Shown here: piece by piece, positions 17,031 through 26,830 of the stretch
How the letters are laid out: every line of letters starts with the position of its first letter
How positions within the stretch are numbered: the first letter of the stretch is position 1
Assembly: GCF_028618435.1 (NCBI RefSeq)
Contig: NZ_JAQISW010000009.1
Span: 1-64,000, forward strand
Origin: Bartonella sp. MM73XJBT.G
Lineage (GTDB): Bacteria > Pseudomonadota > Alphaproteobacteria > Rhizobiales > Rhizobiaceae
Direction: 5' to 3'
Length of the DNA stretch: 64,000 nt
Made by a program: the position numbers and the translations under genes
Notes under the pieces: model-generated
What the model saw: only the letters and a program-made list of their open reading frames with translations
Told to the model about the DNA's origin: nothing
Databases searched by the model: none

Positions 17031-17290
17031 TTTCCGCCTCCAAAATCCATATAAATCACACGATTGCTCTCATCCGCATCAGAGCTGTCACACTCAGCCA
17101 AAACTTCTGCAACTTCAGCTTCCAAAACCGCATCCGCCTCCCCCAAACGGTGAACACTCAACTCCAATTCAAGCAATAACGCCAAATCAACACACAATTT
17201 AAGCTTTTCTCCAATATCAAAACCGCATTGATAATCGTCATAAAGACCAACAAGCGTATCGGATAATTCTTTGTCGCATAAAGGGATCAT
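17027..17290 (-). CDS. Small acidic hypothetical early phage protein
   Basis: 87 residues from the ATG that overlaps the B stop as ATGA; a further upstream start is less likely. The protein is acidic and leucine-rich (LKLCVDLALLLELELSVHRL, then EAEVAEVLAECDSSDADES). No family recognised. An accessory to transposition or an antagonist of a host protein would suit the position, but nothing in the sequence shows this. Confidence 0.6.
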   Translation of the reverse strand: MIPLCDKELSDTLVGLYDDYQCGFDIGEKLKLCVDLALLLELELSVHRLGEADAVLEAEVAEVLAECDSSDADESNRVIYMDFGGGK

Positions 17291-18318
17291 GCCAATTCCT
17301 CCACGTTGCGGTTTTTCCATGCGGCTTTGACATGTTTAAGCGTCACCTCACTCTCATCCCCAAGAGCTGCCATACGCGCCAACATCATAGTTTTATCAAT
17401 CTGCCGTAAAGCCCCAGCTTTCAAACCAATACCGGTCAAAAACTTTATCGCACCAGCATCTTCAATCCCCCAATCGTGAATGCGCGCCGCAATATCCTCA
17501 CTATAAGGTTTGCGACGTTTCAAATGCATCGCCAATCGGCTTTTAATTTGTGCATAAGAAGGTCCATTTTGACGATGCACGAGACGTCCCGAAATCTCAT
17601 CATTGCCAACCAAAGCAAGCCCCGTACCATTGATATCAACAAAGTGACGCAACTGATTAATCGCCTCATCCGTTAAATTTTGCGCCTCATCAACGATCAA
17701 CAATGTTCCACCCCCCACACGCTCTAATCTCTTGCCAATGGCACGCGTTAAGCGGGTGGGATTATATTCCACCACTTCCAATTCTGCTGCCATATCATTC
17801 AAAATACCATGAACACTGCGCGTATGCGGACTTGCTGTCACCAGATAAACATGCGGGCGGGTAGAGCGGTAATAGCGGCAGGTTTCCGTCTTGCCACTCC
17901 CCGCATCAAGCGTAATCATCACCATATCCCCCGTACTTTGTGCCAGTGTTAGCGTGTCAATGATTTCACAAGCTATACGGTTCTTTTGAAACGCAGGCTT
18001 TTCTGGGATTATCTCCAAAAGCCCTGCCGTTTCTTTTAATGTTTCAACCCATTGTTGAACCTTCGCATTTTGCTTGCCCAATTGCCCCGCATAACTGCCC
18101 GCATACCACTGCGAAAAGGTGCCATCCGGCATGCCAATGCGCCGCGCCACCTCTGCCTTAGTCCAATCATTCGTCTGTGCCAGAGCGATCACCGAATCCA
18201 CAAGCGTGTTCCATAAAGCAATATCATCACTATTGCGGTTTTGGGCTGTCCCATCGGGCTGTTTTTTAGGGCGCGCCCAAGGATTTTTATCAACGGTTGC
18301 ATTTATCGCGTACTTCAT
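17287..18318 (-). CDS. Transposition protein B (MuB-type AAA+ ATPase)
   Basis: 343 residues. An N-terminal helix-turn-helix (WTKAEVARRIGMPDGTFSQW, about 53-72) is followed by an AAA+ core with Walker A DAGSGKTE (about 139-146) and Walker B LLIVDEAQNL (about 205-214), the MuB layout. MuB binds target DNA and delivers it to the transposase. The start has an AGGGG ribosome binding site seven bases upstream. A 338-bp gap with repeats and a hairpin separates it from transposase A, where Mu has almost none. Confidence 0.9.
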   Translation of the reverse strand: MKYAINATVDKNPWARPKKQPDGTAQNRNSDDIALWNTLVDSVIALAQTNDWTKAEVARRIGMPDGTFSQWYAGSYAGQLGKQNAKVQQWVETLKETAGLLEIIPEKPAFQKNRIACEIIDTLTLAQSTGDMVMITLDAGSGKTETCRYYRSTRPHVYLVTASPHTRSVHGILNDMAAELEVVEYNPTRLTRAIGKRLERVGGGTLLIVDEAQNLTDEAINQLRHFVDINGTGLALVGNDEISGRLVHRQNGPSYAQIKSRLAMHLKRRKPYSEDIAARIHDWGIEDAGAIKFLTGIGLKAGALRQIDKTMMLARMAALGDESEVTLKHVKAAWKNRNVEELA

Positions 18319-18656: not shown

Positions 18657-20654
18657 CTATCTTCTAGGAAACTTGATCACTTCATGCACCTCACTTGAAG
18701 CGCTAAGGCGTCTTAAAGCTTGGTGCAAATGTTGACTAAATTCTTGCGCATCCAAAGCCTCATCATCCCCTAAAACCGCATCATGAGCCTTTAAAGCGAG
18801 ATTCCCCGCATTCTTTGGCATCAAACGACTTACCTTTGGGGAAACAGAACGCTTGGATTTTGCATCATCACCCCTCCTTGCAACTTTTGCATAAACATCC
18901 GCCAATTGATCCGGCGCAAGCTTTGCTGCCAACTGCTTTTCTGCTTTAACAGCTCTCACATATTCTTTACGCAAACGCCCATTCAAACGCGCTGCCTGCT
19001 GGTCGTAAAAACCCACATCCGCAAGGCAAGGTGCTAAACAAAGCAACTGATTATTCAAATCATAAACCCGCAAATCTTGGTGCAAATTATCCGGGTCAAA
19101 GCGCACAATCACCTTTTCTCCCGCATAGCTATTCAACGCCCGCGCCCAATAACGATTGCCATAAAAATGAATCTCACCTGTCCCCTTTTGCGTACGCAAC
19201 GCCTCTGAAGTCAAAAGCCATAAAGCCCTCTGGGCTGCACTTGCTTGCCGAACTATCGTTCCCTCTGCTTGCAAACTCTCAGTAAAGGTCTCATCAAAAC
19301 TGCGCCCCGCACAATTAACCGCTTTGCGTCCCGCTTGCGCATTATGTGCCACAATCTGCGCACCAACATGGGCTTTAAACGCTTCAAATCCTATCGCGCG
19401 CCGCCCATAATCTTCCGGCTTGGCATCCGGTTTATTGCCCGTATAAGCCCCCGCACATAATGGGTGTTTTGAAATCGCTTCTGCCAAATCACGCCATGCC
19501 CGCTCAATCGGTTTCGATTGTCCGCTATAAGGGGTGGTCCATTGCAATTGAATACCCAAACTCGTCAAAAGACCCTGCGGTTCATCCGCCTTAATCTTAA
19601 AACGAAAGCGGTTTTGCACACCTCCAGAAATCCACTTGCTGGTAAAAGCACGCCCATTATCCAAGGTCATACGCTCTGGTATCCCATAAGCCTCCACCAT
19701 GTCCCCAATCACCAAACGCACGATTTCCCAAGTCTCAGCATCCGATAAGCGCCATGATAAAATCTTCCCCGAATAAAGATCTTGAATGGCAATCAAATAA
19801 AGCCGCACAGGCTTCTCTGTCCAAGGAACGCTCACAAAAACATCCAGCTTATGCCCGTCCATATTCACAGCTTGTAGTGCATGCAAGCTTGAGCGATCAC
19901 GCCGTTGGGCGGGATAAAGCTTTTTTGCCGTCTCCTCTCCCTCACGCGCTAAAACCACAACCGCTTTGGAAACTTGCGCCTTAAAACGACGCCGCAAAGC
20001 CCGCTCTGAAGGAATAGGCTCCCAACCTTTCTCCCGTGCAACCGAAACCATCCGCCGATAACACGCCGAAAAAGCAGGGCGAGAAGAGCGTAAATAATCC
20101 GAACATAAAACCTCCCACGCCCCCTCATGACAGGGCGCAAATTGCGAAACAGTCTCCTCACCATAACAAGGCGCCAGCGCTGCCAACCAATCAGGGCGCT
20201 CATATCCTTCAACCATCTGCCGCCAATTAAAAAGCGACATCCGGCTAACCCCAAACTGCACCGCACACAAACTTGCTGCATCATGCACACCCATACCGGC
20301 ATGAAGTAAATCCTCCATAAAGCAAAGTGCCTTCAAACGCTCTTCACAGCGCCTTTTATGCGCCTTTGAAAGCCCTTCATAACGCACCCAAACACTTTCC
20401 TTTTGCATGCTCTGTTCTGCCCTTTGCAAAACATCAACACTCCCCTCCCGCAACAACAACGCCGCCCGCGCCCCCTCCGGCAATAAAGAGATGTGATACT
20501 CCCAAACTGGCTTGGTCTTGCTTTCCACCTTCCGTGAGAGTTCAGAATTTTTTCTCCAATATGCCCGTCCGTGGTTTTCAAGACTTTTATATGTTTTTGG
20601 CAATCCTGGCAAAGCCGCTTCAGCCAATTCAGCAATACTAAACCACTCTTTCAT
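18657..20654 (-). CDS. Transposase A (MuA-type DDE recombinase)
   Basis: 665 residues, the length of MuA. Domains in order: a Mu-type N-terminal DNA-binding helix-turn-helix (MKEWFSIAELAEAALPGLPK), further DNA-binding helices to about 240, the RNase H-like core with catalytic Asp266 (VNMDGHK), Asp332 (LDNGRAF) and Glu384 (KPIERAW), the beta-barrel part (about 500-560), and a C-terminal basic region ending FPRR. It joins phage ends to target DNA for integration and replicative transposition. The start overlaps the previous stop as ATGA. Confidence 0.93.
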   Translation of the reverse strand: MKEWFSIAELAEAALPGLPKTYKSLENHGRAYWRKNSELSRKVESKTKPVWEYHISLLPEGARAALLLREGSVDVLQRAEQSMQKESVWVRYEGLSKAHKRRCEERLKALCFMEDLLHAGMGVHDAASLCAVQFGVSRMSLFNWRQMVEGYERPDWLAALAPCYGEETVSQFAPCHEGAWEVLCSDYLRSSRPAFSACYRRMVSVAREKGWEPIPSERALRRRFKAQVSKAVVVLAREGEETAKKLYPAQRRDRSSLHALQAVNMDGHKLDVFVSVPWTEKPVRLYLIAIQDLYSGKILSWRLSDAETWEIVRLVIGDMVEAYGIPERMTLDNGRAFTSKWISGGVQNRFRFKIKADEPQGLLTSLGIQLQWTTPYSGQSKPIERAWRDLAEAISKHPLCAGAYTGNKPDAKPEDYGRRAIGFEAFKAHVGAQIVAHNAQAGRKAVNCAGRSFDETFTESLQAEGTIVRQASAAQRALWLLTSEALRTQKGTGEIHFYGNRYWARALNSYAGEKVIVRFDPDNLHQDLRVYDLNNQLLCLAPCLADVGFYDQQAARLNGRLRKEYVRAVKAEKQLAAKLAPDQLADVYAKVARRGDDAKSKRSVSPKVSRLMPKNAGNLALKAHDAVLGDDEALDAQEFSQHLHQALRRLSASSEVHEVIKFPRR

Positions 20655-21109
20655 GGCTGCCCCCGTCTAATACGAACCGGAACCGCACGCATCGCTTTCA
20701 ACCGCGCCGCAATCTCACGCTGTTCCTGCTGCAATCTTGCAATTTCTGCCAAACGCGCTTCATCCCCTTGCAACAACAGCAAACCATCTTCACTCACCAC
20801 CTCATCCCAGAGCCAAAATGCCTCTGTCGCCCGCACAAATGCCTTAAACCGCGGCAGGGAAATATCCACCTGCTTACTTTCCGCAACATAAGCATCCAAA
20901 CTCGCCTTACTTAAACAACCAATGCCTAAATAATGCGCCATACGCTCTGCAATCACACTGCGCTCAACCCGGCATTCACGCAAAGCCCGCGCCATCGCCC
21001 GCTTAATGCGTGAGCGAAACCGCCCTAAATCAATCTGCGCAACGGGTTCACGGCAAGGAAAAACCGGACGTTGAAAAAAATCAAGTTGATGAGAACCACG
21101 CGTCTTCAT
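20651..21109 (-). CDS. Hypothetical early phage protein between ParB-like and A
   Basis: 152 residues with ATGA overlaps at both ends, so tightly coupled to the ParB-like gene and transposase. It has a basic helical middle (GRFRSRIKRAMARALRECRV, about 29-48) and a C-terminal coiled-coil-like helix (EIARLQQEQREIAARLKAMR). The pattern suggests a DNA-binding protein that oligomerises, perhaps a transposition accessory factor, but no family was recognised. Confidence 0.65.
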   Translation of the reverse strand: MKTRGSHQLDFFQRPVFPCREPVAQIDLGRFRSRIKRAMARALRECRVERSVIAERMAHYLGIGCLSKASLDAYVAESKQVDISLPRFKAFVRATEAFWLWDEVVSEDGLLLLQGDEARLAEIARLQQEQREIAARLKAMRAVPVRIRRGQP

Positions 21110-22128
21110 GCCTGCCCCTCCCCCGATTGCTTGTTCAAATAATCATAAAACCGTGCCCGTGTCTGTGCATCCGCTCTCTGCCACACACTCAACAATTGAG
21201 CAAAAATCCGTTCCTGCTCATTAACTTTCGGGGGTATATTAATCCCATTGACCAAATCAACAGCCCGCCGTAAATCCCCCTCAACCTGTTGCAAAGCAAT
21301 TGCCACCCGCCGCTGCGCAACCGGCTCCATCTTCGCCAACTTCAACAACTGCGCTTGGTTATCCGCCAACGCCGTCCCCCGCAAAACAGACCGCAACTCC
21401 GGCTGTAAATGCCGTGCAATACAGTTGAGACGTTTTACAACATCTTGAGAAAAACCAATGCGGTCCGCCACATGTTTAGCAAAAGATAAAACTGTCCCTT
21501 TGCCATCCTTTCCCTCTATTTGAGCAATAGGTGCAAGTTGCACCAATTGCTCAAAATCTGTTTCACCACCGATCAAAGGTGCAACTTGCACCTTTGATTT
21601 TTTATCCCCTTCACACCCAGTTTCATGGTGCTCTGAAGAACCATCTTTGGGCAAAGGGACAACTTGTCCTTTTGCCACTTTGTCCTTTGTATATTGATTA
21701 CCACCGATCAAAGGGTAAACTTTACCCTTTGATTTTCTGTCCCCACCAACCTTAATCTCCCCATACTTCTTTTCCCACAATTCACGGTAAGTCTGGACAA
21801 AAAGCGCACGGTCAATAACAGACAATTCATTGCGAAAGAGGTTTTCTGCCACTTCTAAAAGCGCGGCATTCTCTTTATCTGCTTGCACCACAACCGCTTC
21901 AATGGCGCTATACCCTAAAAGCTCCGCCGCCCGTAACCGATGCGCCCCCGCAATCAAAGTATAATGCCCCTCTTTAGCATTGGGGGTATGGCGCACTGTA
22001 ATCGGGTTCATTAACCCCTCCCGCGCCATCGATTGCGCAAGTGCCTTGGCATGCTCATCATCAACAGGGCGTATACGCTCCGGTACAACAATCAAATCTA
22101 AAGCAATCTCTTGAAACTGTGCCATCAC
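21106..22128 (-). CDS. ParB-like nuclease-domain protein with palindrome-encoded repeats
   Basis: 340 residues. The N-terminal ParB/Srx-like domain has LIAGAHRLRAAELLGY (about 58-73) and a VAENLFRNELSVIDRA block (about 93-108). A helix-turn-helix follows (FAKHVADRIGFSQDVVKRL, about 216-234). Between them, residues 130-202 hold four variants of a short motif of the form K-x-x-V-x-P-L-I, each encoded by a DNA palindrome. ParB-like proteins bind specific DNA sites; here the partner is unknown. It lies in the early operon between the DnaA-like gene and the 152-residue gene. It may control early genes or phage DNA partitioning. Confidence 0.8.
   Translation of the reverse strand: MMAQFQEIALDLIVVPERIRPVDDEHAKALAQSMAREGLMNPITVRHTPNAKEGHYTLIAGAHRLRAAELLGYSAIEAVVVQADKENAALLEVAENLFRNELSVIDRALFVQTYRELWEKKYGEIKVGGDRKSKGKVYPLIGGNQYTKDKVAKGQVVPLPKDGSSEHHETGCEGDKKSKVQVAPLIGGETDFEQLVQLAPIAQIEGKDGKGTVLSFAKHVADRIGFSQDVVKRLNCIARHLQPELRSVLRGTALADNQAQLLKLAKMEPVAQRRVAIALQQVEGDLRRAVDLVNGINIPPKVNEQERIFAQLLSVWQRADAQTRARFYDYLNKQSGEGQA
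21519..21555. repeat. Palindrome P1 inside the ParB-like gene
   Basis: Eighteen-base arms around one central base with a single mismatched pair. The inner core is GGTGCAA-G-TTGCACC. It is the longest of four palindromes in this gene and encodes the EQLVQLAPIAQ part of the protein. Its centre (21537) is 48 bases from that of P2. Confidence 0.85.
21572..21598. repeat. Palindrome P2 inside the ParB-like gene
   Basis: A perfect 27-bp palindrome with 13-base arms and one central base. The inner core is GGTGCAA-C-TTGCACC, with the same outer arms (ATCAAAG / CTTTGAT) and flanks as P4. It encodes SKVQVAPLI. Confidence 0.88.
21650..21676. repeat. Palindrome P3 inside the ParB-like gene
   Basis: Thirteen-base arms around one central base with one mismatched pair (a G opposite T). 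The inner core is GGACAA-C-TTGTCC. It encodes AKGQVVPL. Its centre is 78 bases from P2 and 57 from P4, so all spacings keep the reading frame. Confidence 0.82.
21707..21733. repeat. Palindrome P4 inside the ParB-like gene
   Basis: A perfect 27-bp palindrome, 13-base arms and one central base. The inner core is GGGTAAA-C-TTTACCC. Compared with P2 the outer arms are the same, but three inner bases differ, and the opposite arm carries the matching changes. It encodes SKGKVYPLI. Confidence 0.88.
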
Positions 22129-22720: not shown

Positions 22721-23026
22721 TCAAGCAGCATTCCCACGCAAAGCAGAATGCGCACGCGAATCTGTATTGGCATGTTTTGCTGCTTTAAAAATGCGACGGC
22801 GACTTTTGGGGTAGCGGTCGCTAAAAACCTGCTCGACGGGCAAACCGATAAAATCGGCAATGGCGCGTTCGGCTTTCTCGTTAGACCGTGTCCAAATGTG
22901 TTGAACACTGGATGACGAGAGTTGATAAGCTTTCGCGAGCTCCGCCAAGGTCATGTTACGGCGGCGTAGCTCGGCTAAAATACTATGGCGATCCCATACT
23001 TGAATGCATGTTTGGGTGGTTGTCAT
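22721..23026 (-). CDS. Ner-like transcriptional regulator
   Basis: A 101-residue member of the Ner/Nlp helix-turn-helix group, longer than Mu Ner (75 residues). The DNA-binding part is clear: DRHSILAELRRRNMTLAELA (about 12-31) and then YQLSSSSVQHIWTRSNEKAE (about 34-53), followed by the family block IADFIGLPVEQVFSDRY. Ner damps early transcription in Mu. It is the first gene of the leftward early operon and faces the repressor gene across the operator region. Confidence 0.88.
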   Translation of the reverse strand: MTTTQTCIQVWDRHSILAELRRRNMTLAELAKAYQLSSSSVQHIWTRSNEKAERAIADFIGLPVEQVFSDRYPKSRRRIFKAAKHANTDSRAHSALRGNAA

Positions 23027-23177: not shown

Positions 23178-23696
23178 GTGGCAAAAAAAGAAATTGAACC
23201 CAAAACAGAACAGGCAAAGCGGTTACGTTTGATACGAGAAAGCTTAGAGCTTAATCGAGATCAGATAGCTACCCGTTTAGGTATTAAAAAAGCAATTTAT
23301 GACCATGCTGAAAGAGGGACCACTTTTCCCAATGTGGAATTTTTGACTGCTTTATCACAGCAATTAAATGTCAACTTAACTTGGCTAATTACAGGTGAAG
23401 GCGAAATGTTTATGGAAGTAACGAAAGTTACAGATTTAGCGCCTACTATCCCTGCTGGACTCATGAAAAAGCTTGGTCGCATAGCTTATACAACCTATCG
23501 CGATGCTAAAATAAAACTCCCCCCTGAAGATATAGCGGAACTCGCGGCGGAACTTTATAAAAAACTGCAAGAGCTGGTTCAAGACATTAATGACACGGAA
23601 GAAATAGAGCTTACTTTGCCTCTCCTAAAATTGCATTTAAAGCGTCAAATAGAAGCTGAAAGAGCACATCTAGAAACTACACAAAATACGGCTTAA
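23178..23696 (+). CDS. Phage repressor, XRE helix-turn-helix type
   Basis: 172 residues, rightward, opposite to all other phage genes. It starts with GTG. The N-terminal XRE domain (RLRLIRESLELNRDQIATRL, about 15-34, through FLTALSQQLNVNLTWLITGE) is like that of lambdoid and Mu-like repressors; the C-terminal half is helical and acidic (DIAELAAELYKKLQELVQDI) and probably dimerises. No LexA-type Ser/Lys protease motif is seen. Position at the left end of the phage beside ner and the early operators indicates the lysogeny repressor (Mu c equivalent). Confidence 0.82.
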   Translation: MAKKEIEPKTEQAKRLRLIRESLELNRDQIATRLGIKKAIYDHAERGTTFPNVEFLTALSQQLNVNLTWLITGEGEMFMEVTKVTDLAPTIPAGLMKKLGRIAYTTYRDAKIKLPPEDIAELAAELYKKLQELVQDINDTEEIELTLPLLKLHLKRQIEAERAHLETTQNTA

Positions 23697-24395: not shown

Positions 24396-24808
24396 TCAAT
24401 TATTGCGAATCAGAACTTCTTTTCTAGGCGTTTTTTTTGCCGTACCTGCTGTCCAAAGGGTCTCTACTTCTAAAAAATCAAAATCTTTAAAGATCTCTCT
24501 TACAGCATCACAATCATTCAGACTCAAAACAAATTTGCCTTGAATACCTTTAAGAACTTTTGCCATGCTCTCAAAATCATCTTCAACAAAATTCCCAGAG
24601 CTATAGCACTTCTTCTTTACAAGATAAGGTGGGTCTAAATAAAACAAACTATCAGGTGCATCAAATAACTTCACAACCCGTTCCCACGATATGTTTAAAA
24701 TAACTGTATTAAGCAGTTTTTTCCTAACACGTTTCATCCTTACTAAAAGTTTGTCCGGATTAAAGCTTACCGTTTTTTTTCCTACAAAGCTAAAAGAGTA
24801 GTAATCTT
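24396..24808 (-). pseudogene. C-terminal fragment of D12-class DNA adenine methylase
   Basis: About 137 residues carrying the catalytic motif LFYLDPPYLVKKK and the downstream LNDCDAVREIFKDF and KTPRKEVLIRNN blocks of phage-type Dam methylases (MethyltransfD12). The S-adenosylmethionine-binding N-terminal part (FxGxG motif) is missing. Instead the frame continues upstream into haemagglutinin sequence with no stop, so the fragment is the tail of a 322-codon chimeric frame. Without its cofactor-binding part it should be inactive as a methylase. The junction is placed at about 24795-24815 by eye. Confidence 0.75.
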
Positions 24809-26830
24809 CTTTCCCAAAGGAAGCATTCCCCATCCATCCAGAACCATTCGTGCCATAGGTATAGCCAACATTCAGGGAAGCACTTTGCGAATGATTGTGC
24901 GTGCTTTGCGTATTTTGTGCACTTTCAAAGGTGATATTTTGTCCTGCACTCAAGTTAATGTTCCCACTCCCTTCATCATTGATCAGAGGGTTTGTACCAG
25001 CAATAATATCAGTACCAACACCATGGATGTTGCCTTTGTGAGCGTTCATGTTGACAGCATGTCCCCCTTGTATGGTCGTTGTTGTCGCATTGGTGCCTTG
25101 AGAAGAGGCTTCTGCCTTATGAGACTGAAACCCTGCTGTGATGCTGGCTGAAGCATCAAGACCATTAAAAAGAGTATCCTTGGTTACTCCCCCCTTCATC
25201 CCATTATAAAGACCTGTTCCTTTGTTATAGAGATCATAGCCTTTCAAGCTAACAATCAAACCATTGCCGATTTTGTGTTTTGTATCCCCATGACCAAAAC
25301 GTTTTGCCGCATCCTTTACGTCTTTTACAGTACCAATAATGCCAACATTGACAGAAGCTGTCACACCGGCAAAAAACTTTTCATGCTTTTCTTGTGTATT
25401 AGTGGTATCATAGCTTTCCGACAGTGTGATATTATTGCCTGCATCAATATTGACATCACGATTTGCCGAAACATTTGTCGCTTGAAAATTCGCATCATTG
25501 CCGGCATTAAAATTCGCATCATTGCCCGCATAGAAATTAGATGCTGTATTAGTCTTTTCCCATTGATCGCCCGTATCTTTATTGCTCTCAACACCAACAC
25601 CAATAGAGCCACCACTGTTGCTCTTTTCAAATTGAATGCCAAAGCCCTGTGCGTTCTTCCTTTGAGTTTGCGCTATGACTATTGTGACCAGGTGAAACGT
25701 TCACATTATGGGCTGCCGAGACATTAATATTTTCCTCTGCATTAAAGTCAGAACCCACCACGTTCACATCTTCTTTTATAGCGGTGATGGTAATATTTTT
25801 TCCATTGAGAGAAGAGCCTTGATGTTCAAAGCTTTCCTCATTTTCTGTCTTGGATTCACTTCCATATATCGACACAAAGCCCTTGCCAGATCCCACACCA
25901 AAACCCGTTTCAGACTTTTCTGAATGGCTCTTATGATGGTCTGTCATGCCATTAATCGTCACATTTTCTGCCGCAACATTGATGTCTTGATCTGCAATCA
26001 TATGAGAAGCCGTAATTGTGGCATCTTTTTTTGCTTGCAAATCAATATTGCCCGTCGCCAAAAAAATGGAGGAAACCGTTGTGGTATGGGATTCAGCTGT
26101 ATTGGAAGATTCCTCATGCAAAAAACCACTTTTTGAGGATTGTTGTTGCTGATCATACTTCTCTTGCGCACCTTTGATGAGAATATTTCCCAGAGTGAAT
26201 GGTAATATCCGCTTGCTTCTGATCAGATGTTTCCTCTGCCTTACCGGCTGTGAGAACCGATCCTGTGATTGCCGTGTCATTCCCCGATTCAATGGCAACC
26301 CCCTTGCCCCCCGATATCAATGAACCAGAAACTTCTGTTGCATCCATCTTGTTATGTTCGGATTTGCTGCTGCTGAACATCCCTCCCTCTTTATGGTAGT
26401 TCATCTCATAATGTAAGCTATTTTCCGCATTGTTGATGAGAACATCGTGGCTTGCTTTCAGCCCCACCTTGCCATCAGCTGCAATGGAACTGCCCGTAAT
26501 GGTGAGATCATGTGGTTTGCCATCCTGCCCCGCAATAGCCGTGATATCTCCCCCAGATTTTATCGAAGAGCCAACAGCAACAGAGGCTTGCATATCCACT
26601 TTAAGATTTTTATTCTGAAGATGATATTCCATCTCATCGGCTTTAGTATCTATTGTGATATCCCCTTGGGCACCAAGAGCGACATTGCCCTTTGCATCTA
26701 TATCGGAGGCAGAAACATGGATATCTTTTCCAGCTATGACCGGCAATATCAGTGTATAGAGAAATCGCTCTATCCTCATCTCCAAAACCATAATCACCAT
26801 ACCAAATACAGAGATTTTGAAAGAATTCAA
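24809..26830 (-). pseudogene. Filamentous haemagglutinin (FhaB-like) remnant, frameshifted
   Basis: Haemagglutinin-repeat sequence in three reading frames. Piece 1 (26830-26153) has VALGAQGDITIDTKADE and SGGDITAIAGQDGK; piece 2 (26298-25627) has NIDLQAKKDATITASH; piece 3 (from about 25665, no start codon) has NRDVNIDAGNNITLSESYDT and runs into the methylase tail. Piece 1 joins piece 2 by one extra base in a GGG run near 26189-26191; piece 2 joins piece 3 near 25665-25690. Neither the secretion signal of two-partner exoproteins nor a transporter gene is present. The first 25 residues of piece 1 look unlike haemagglutinin, so its upstream joint is also rearranged. Confidence 0.8.

Follow-up and report, generated by a model that had tools for sequence, protein, structure and literature searches.

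Palindromes in the linker code of a ParB-like prophage gene in Bartonella as probable DNA sites of the gene's own product

ParB proteins combine an N-terminal CTPase-fold domain and a helix-turn-helix with a palindromic site, parS, and in B. subtilis one such site, parS-359, is located within parB itself (PMC4442127). ParB and Noc load as clamps and slide (PMC12704722, PMC8429893), specificity is switched between the two by a small set of residues in the DNA-binding domain, which read two base positions (PMC7383237), and KorB of plasmid RK2 is a repressor that loads at OB and slides to promoters (PMC11790492). A gene of this family was analysed in a 64,000-nucleotide stretch of DNA from Bartonella sp. 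MM73XJBT.G (positions 1 to 64,000 of contig NZ_JAQISW010000009.1, hereafter the window), where the code for the linker between the two domains contains four palindromes, P1 to P4. In sequence comparison such palindromes covary with the ParB/Noc/KorB-like protein of their own gene, and we consider it very probable that this protein recognises them as specific DNA sites, resembling parS, NBS (the Noc-binding site) or OB. The gene and its elements are as follows.

21106..22128, minus strand: ParB/Noc/KorB-like gene, 340 amino acids; GTG start as listed, an ATG one codon on being also possible
21838..22071, minus strand: ParB N-terminal (CTPase-fold) domain, residues 20-97
21490..21744, minus strand: code for the linker (residues about 129-213), for which disorder is predicted (predicted local distance difference test, pLDDT, <50)
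21707..21733: P4, perfect 27-bp palindrome, centre 21720, core GGGTAAA (type A), pairs 13/13
21650..21676: P3, 27-bp palindrome, centre 21663, core GGGACAA (type B), pairs 12/13, mismatch at step 7
21572..21598: P2, perfect 27-bp palindrome, centre 21585, core GGTGCAA (type C), pairs 13/13
21519..21555: P1, 37-bp palindrome, centre 21537, core GGTGCAA (type C), pairs 17/18, mismatch at step 8
about 21479..21504: decayed palindrome-like stretch I1, nearer the helix-turn-helix, 81% complementary to the P3 stretch
21415..21456, minus strand: recognition helix region GFSQDVVKRLNCIA, h1-h14, with K at h8 and R at h9; model helices 216-224 and 228-240

Pairs were counted outward from the centre base. 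A recount bore out what the initial annotation had read from the letters: the centres lie at 21537, 21585, 21663 and 21720 (spacings 48, 78 and 57), P2 and P4 are perfect and P1 and P3 have one mismatch each, P2 and P4 have the same outer arms and flanks and different inner arms (GGTGCAA versus GGGTAAA) with compensating changes in the opposite arm, and all four lie between the ParB-like domain and the helix-turn-helix. They are coded within linker residues that are predicted to be disordered. Nowhere else in the 64 kb does an odd-centred site reach 12 of 13 pairs, and 20 first-order Markov simulations of the window yielded four sites of this quality in total, or 0.2 per 64 kb. The decayed stretch at 21479-21504 was without intact pairing at the single centre tried.

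The product matches PF02195 (E 2.7e-12) and phrog_3264 (E 3.4e-107), a ParB-like partition protein family that was the best match for all five ParB-like proteins compared and whose entry, as shown, names no site. Its closest sequence match in PDB is Noc (7ol9), and its predicted structure resembles Noc, ParB and KorB, the KorB fold matches being 8qa8, 8qa9 and 1r71. Of the features of the ParB/Noc/KorB family, the ParB N-terminal domain (PF02195 and structure matches) and a helix-turn-helix domain of the family's type are present, and a palindromic site read by the recognition helix is supported by the covariation described below. The stretches GxHRLRA and ENLxRNEL, which bear on a possible CTP binding and clamp sliding, are conserved in the ParB-like proteins; the ParA-binding motif LG-R/K-GL (as given in PMC12704722) is, as read, absent from the window protein. 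In the structure model the N-terminal domain and the helix-turn-helix are confident and residues 129-207 and 209-213 disordered, and disorder is also predicted at residues 120-140 of a relative with a single palindrome (L137).

Distant relatives comprised 80 genes from IMG/VR, found by single-protein scans, and 8 from named phages (88 genes, 86 of them distinct); a profile scan from a nine-sequence alignment recovered no conserved stretch. Relatives in other phages usually have one palindrome, in about the same place and with unrelated letters. When the linker palindrome was judged against 100 synonymous-codon shuffles, it was reached by at most two of them in 72 of the 86 distinct genes, and none of the 86 beat the shuffles in a control stretch of equal length downstream of the helix. 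Homologues losing the palindromy at random, which the initial annotation had looked to as the mark of repeats at the protein level only, were not what appeared: those 72 genes keep the palindrome while its letters change. Fourteen genes failed the shuffle test (L110, L126, L130, L141, L144, L151, L156, L175-L178, L185, L071 and L073). A single linker palindrome, again of unrelated letters, occurs in each of five named transposable phages (POA1180, StopSmel, Aussie, RcapMu and RR1-B); RcWaterboi, vB_ThpS-P1 and Mwe-Yong1 had none at the first threshold, and weaker palindromes fitting the rule given below were later found in RcWaterboi and vB_ThpS-P1 (L071, L072). One gene, L174, has two adjacent palindromes. 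The site lies about ten codons closer to the helix-turn-helix in L131, L142, L146, L154, L155, L160 and L071, with the relation of core to helix unchanged.

The changing letters follow the recognition helix. Helix residues were numbered G1, L2, S3 and onward, with the variable residue at 8 (h8), and half-site steps were counted outward from the palindrome centre; the rule was counted over the 78 of 88 genes with an odd-centred palindrome above threshold, which represent 58 distinct combinations. In all 58 the base at step 6 can be read off residue 8: E with C in 17, Q with C in 8, K with G in 16, R with G in 5, N with G in 9, A with T in 2 and S with T in 1. Arginine at residue 9 is accompanied by C at step 3 (13/13), the remaining 45 combinations having A (41), C (3) or a mismatched pair (one), and step 5 has A where residue 5 is glutamine (3/3) and G where it is arginine (32/32). 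When 249 alignment columns were ranked with bases permuted within clades, residue 8 was the top column for step 6 (z 19.2) and step 7 (9.9), residue 9 for step 3 (7.8) and residue 5 for step 5 (12.9). The rule is valid in each of three clades (36, 17 and 5 combinations); clades and rule had been read by eye from tables before the column test and the prediction test. On a tree of 57 rows built without the linker and helix columns, the step 6 base changes at least 17 times and residue 8 at least 23 times. Independent pairs on all branches number 14, all of which must agree, since the rows contain no exception to the rule.

Predictions from the rule were then made for 50 previously unused loci (30 from genomes of the order, 9 from the class and 11 new IMG/VR contigs), with palindromes chosen by score alone and the nine class-level loci unread before the test. 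Above threshold were 34 loci, two of which (L193 and L198, from one genome) are identical in helix and site. The step 6 rule was correct in 26 of the 28 new cases whose residue 8 has a rule, and the step 3 rule held in 30 of 34. Six new cases with an aromatic residue 8 (F, W, W, W, W and Y; five distinct) all have T at step 6, and the association of aromatic residues or histidine at h8 with T is an unforeseen extension of the rule.

The genome to which the window belongs has a second ParB-like copy, 81% identical and with other palindromes. All of 61 Bartonella genomes match at E 1e-3, 23 of them better than 1e-20 (hand count), and the remaining weak matches are other ParB-like genes; a second scan gave 32 named Bartonella loci. 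Bartonella linkers (35 distinct, 34 of them stop-free, in six helix classes) are mosaics of palindromic cassettes, built from a handful of outer arms and seven principal inner cores, and most contain several palindromes. The core of the gene's own helix class is present in all 34 intact linkers; the best one-to-one helix-core mapping in each of 5000 permutations reached a mean of 21.7 and a maximum of 27. This mapping-free version is preferred to an earlier test whose mapping was drawn from the same data (32/33, where 20000 permutations reached at most 26). The stop-containing gene, L040, is without its class site. The classes also fit the rule, the sole K8 L9 class going with the sole A3 G6 core, the four K/R8 R9 classes with C3 G6 cores and the H8 Y9 class with the A3 T6 core; no helix class matching the type D core was seen. 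For the DVVKR class, that of the window protein, type C is found in 11 of 11 linkers, and P1 and P2 are predicted to be the protein's own sites. The type B core of P3 goes with helix class KSVRR and the type A core of P4 with ESVKL, both unlike the class of the window protein, and these two are predicted to be sites of other classes. In a divergent Bartonella copy outside these counts (L025/L065, G012), a type C core surrounds a two-base centre in a gene with the K8 R9 helix GISNHALKRLNCIA.

Typed sites in Bartonella number 103, of which 46 match the helix of their own gene and 57 do not. The two groups are alike in intactness (on average 11.57 of 12 pairs in the sites that match and 11.39 in those that do not), and all seven inner pairs are present in 39 of the 46 and 42 of the 57. 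The extra palindromes might be a panel of rivals' addresses, that is, working sites for other classes in the ParB-like gene and in the arrays described next, by which one phage's ParB-like protein would be caught by, or would act on, the DNA of another; we regard this as a doubtful proposal.

Noncoding arrays of the same cores, with up to nine sites, occur in Bartonella (for example L106 4738-5170, L104, L105, L100, L090, L103 and L250) and hold many classes in a partly common order. At least two typed sites were found in 13 of 15 array loci, and all seven types in the L106 array. A tRNA gene (Gly, Gln, Ser, Lys, Thr or Met) lies near the array in 14 of 14 loci scanned, and the motif of a tail gene's 3' end in 12 of 15 loci examined, L088, L075 and L257 being without it. 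The tail gene matches phrog_52 'tail protein' (E 7.9e-92) and, at a level short of the Pfam cut-off, Phage_GPD; in seven G050 copies and two G036 copies other sequence follows it, without a palindrome array, in a comparison that used only loci where the end motif was found. This gene had been considered as part of the window prophage, an idea dropped when it was not seen in the window. Array spacers resemble the ParB linker in translation, by eye. The identity of sites versus spacers (0.907 versus 0.781) was not used, that comparison being circular because the sites had been chosen for intactness. At L063/L102 (G049:C4, around 67084-67305) a parB-like fragment runs into an array at a palindrome, likely a recombination junction. 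In the window's own genome, a search pattern that covered core types A to F found perfect palindromes only in the two parB-like genes, in a single array and at one other spot, the last two both near a tRNA gene. A lone type F palindrome in the same genome (L257 1980-2035, C1:6507) stands beside an apparent tRNA-Ser gene, identified by eye, and is probably an array remnant.

Rickettsia palindromic elements, which are dyad-symmetric coding DNA, raise the question whether the palindromes belong to a short element that disperses while keeping the reading frame. PARCELs are likewise dyad-symmetric coding DNA, forming 25-residue amphipathic tandem repeats in various proteins (PMC2996958). Within Bartonella this option of the initial annotation retains some plausibility, in that cassettes clearly shuffle between linkers and also occur in the noncoding arrays near tRNA genes, and the parB-like fragment at L063/L102 continues into one of them. 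Outside Bartonella it is not supported, the site being usually single, in a fixed place and, in the five named complete phages searched, without a close second copy: nothing else in RcapMu, StopSmel and RR1-B matches the core with 3 or fewer of its 15 bases changed, and the nearest sequences have 3 of 15 changed in Aussie and 2 of 15 in POA1180. The confinement of perfect palindromes in the window's own genome also argues against spreading, as does the helix-site rule, which a spreading element does not predict. No cassette in an unrelated gene, let alone many copies, appeared among the hits from the 61 Bartonella genomes that were read in context, which were part of the total. Judged on length, the translated stretches, which span some 5-14 residues and outside Bartonella mostly occur once in a gene, are not PARCELs, from which the palindromes also differ in being likely binding sites of the same protein. 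An element of this kind is very improbable as the explanation. As a separate observation, RR1-B (L256) has an unrelated palindrome, TGACCGGAACCGRGTTCCGGTCA, in four copies across the phage genome (11530, 18994, 26071 and 31108).

Hairpins in the mRNA that slow translation between two domains, another option of the initial annotation, found no support, and we give them next to no credence. The palindromes do lie between two domains, in a linker predicted to be disordered, and hairpins could form in principle; in many genes, however, pairing reaches the centre base, which leaves no room for a hairpin loop. The mismatches counted over steps 2-9 (A-C 9, A-G 9, A-A 4, G-U 4, C-U 3, U-U 1 and C-C 1) show no wobble excess, with A-C at 9 against G-U at 4, and the partner with which the letters covary is a DNA-reading helix. 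Hairpins leave both the covariation with h8, h9 and h5 and the nongenic arrays unexplained.

The gene lies among the early genes of a Mu-like prophage, with the order divergent repressor-like gene, winged helix-turn-helix gene, short gene, ParB-like gene, regulator, MuA and MuB.

23178..23696, plus strand: repressor-like helix-turn-helix protein, divergent (domain search)
22721..23026, minus strand: winged helix-turn-helix protein, PF13693 (domain search), presumably Ner-like by its place
20651..21109, minus strand: next gene, phrog_2345 'transcriptional regulator' (PHROG match)
18657..20654, minus strand: MuA-like transposase (domain search)
17287..18318, minus strand: MuB-like transposition protein (domain search)

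Elsewhere in the window, at 24396-25364 and 25627-26298 on the minus strand, frames resemble filamentous-haemagglutinin-type repeats by eye. Palindromes with a common centre, TTTACTAAA, and differing arms separate the repressor from the regulator gene next to it in RcapMu (L251, 3160-3182) and RcWaterboi (L252, 1815-1837), and may be another instance of operators whose arms vary.

The linker palindromes might also be operators of another regulator, such as the repressor of the phage, its Ner-like protein or the phrog_2345 neighbour, and a repressor with small regulators or unnamed genes does lie nearby in the six complete phages examined; among the columns of the ParB-like protein compared, its recognition helix is nevertheless the best predictor of the site, which leaves this proposal scarcely tenable. 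Least credible of all is that site and helix, about 20 codons apart, are correlated without contact through being swapped together by recombination, since, even though StopSmel and Aussie, and RcapMu and RcWaterboi, differ in helix and site at once, linkage would mark neighbouring columns alike and would hardly yield the same residue-base rule in three clades and in new genes.

Several results weigh against reading the palindromes as sites of the gene's own protein. Two non-helix columns outrank residue 5 for step 4, and a non-helix column leads for steps 2 and 8, step 2 being nearly invariant. Ten of the 88 genes fell below threshold and were left out of the rule count; seven of them (L110, L185, L141 and L175-L178) have weaker sites that agree with the rule, and three (L073, L151 and L156) have no believable site. 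Independent pairs on well-supported branches number only five, all concordant (p 0.0625), and of eight supported pairs for step 3, five are concordant, none opposite and three without a change of the h9 arginine. Among the new loci, 16 of 50 were below threshold and not counted, and two predictions missed: in L192 the helix alignment looks wrong, and in L259 the palindrome picked is probably not the right one. A model of plain autoregulation fails to explain the non-matching majority of typed Bartonella sites, and with no close second copy in the complete phages searched, a regulon is not visible.

In favour of binding by the gene's own protein stand the conserved place, the conserved dyad symmetry, the changing letters and the residue-by-base covariation with the recognition helix. 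The earlier suggestion of parS-like sites for the encoded protein is strongly supported at this level by the covariation of half-site and helix, its recurrence in three clades and the predictions for new genes. Unlike parS, the phage sites vary widely, covary with the helix and sit in the linker code before it; no gene is named ParA in the annotation tables of the six complete phages, where many genes are unnamed and POA1180 has a short 'ATPase'. As in Noc and its NBS, specificity would be set by a handful of residues in the DNA-binding domain, although that switch involves two classes and four residues (173, 179, 184 and 201; PMC7383237), as against 28 distinct core strings here (ambiguous letters included) and h8, h9 and h5 as main readers. 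The operators of KorB lie near or far from several plasmid promoters (PMC11790492), unlike the site in its own gene described here.

By analogy with its family, the protein would bind its site, load as a clamp on nucleotide binding and then slide. The position of the gene suggests that sliding would extend over the early operon, with the regulator, transposase A and transposition protein B downstream, and that the protein may control early-operon transcription or mark the DNA. The site, written in flexible linker code between the CTPase-fold domain and the helix-turn-helix, would be inherited and exchanged with its reader as one unit, the two changing together, and the Bartonella linker would have grown to hold its own site plus, mostly, those of other classes. 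What looks new is that the sites stand so regularly beside their reader, that they vary so widely while covarying with it, and that Bartonella has a collection of other-class sites. No account of sites that lie inside ParB-like phage genes and covary with the helix was found in the titles and abstract openings searched, which included few subscription journals or preprints, and 'palindrom' does not occur in the available part of a ParB-fold survey (PMC12704722).

These genes, nearly all of which would contain one or more sites of their own product, would constitute a large natural set of DNA-binding proteins with known targets, from which the way the ParB/Noc/KorB helix reads DNA could be derived directly and put to the test. 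The coding sequence would be on double duty, the protein sequence of the linker being free and its DNA being the message. If the extra palindromes of Bartonella were indeed rivals' addresses, they would imply cross-phage immunity or decoy competition, with an operator library inside coding sequence. The palindromes suggest a target for the product of the ParB-like gene in transposable phages, so far unexplained, and searching the linker for a palindrome may offer a cheap route to the sites of orphan ParB-like proteins.
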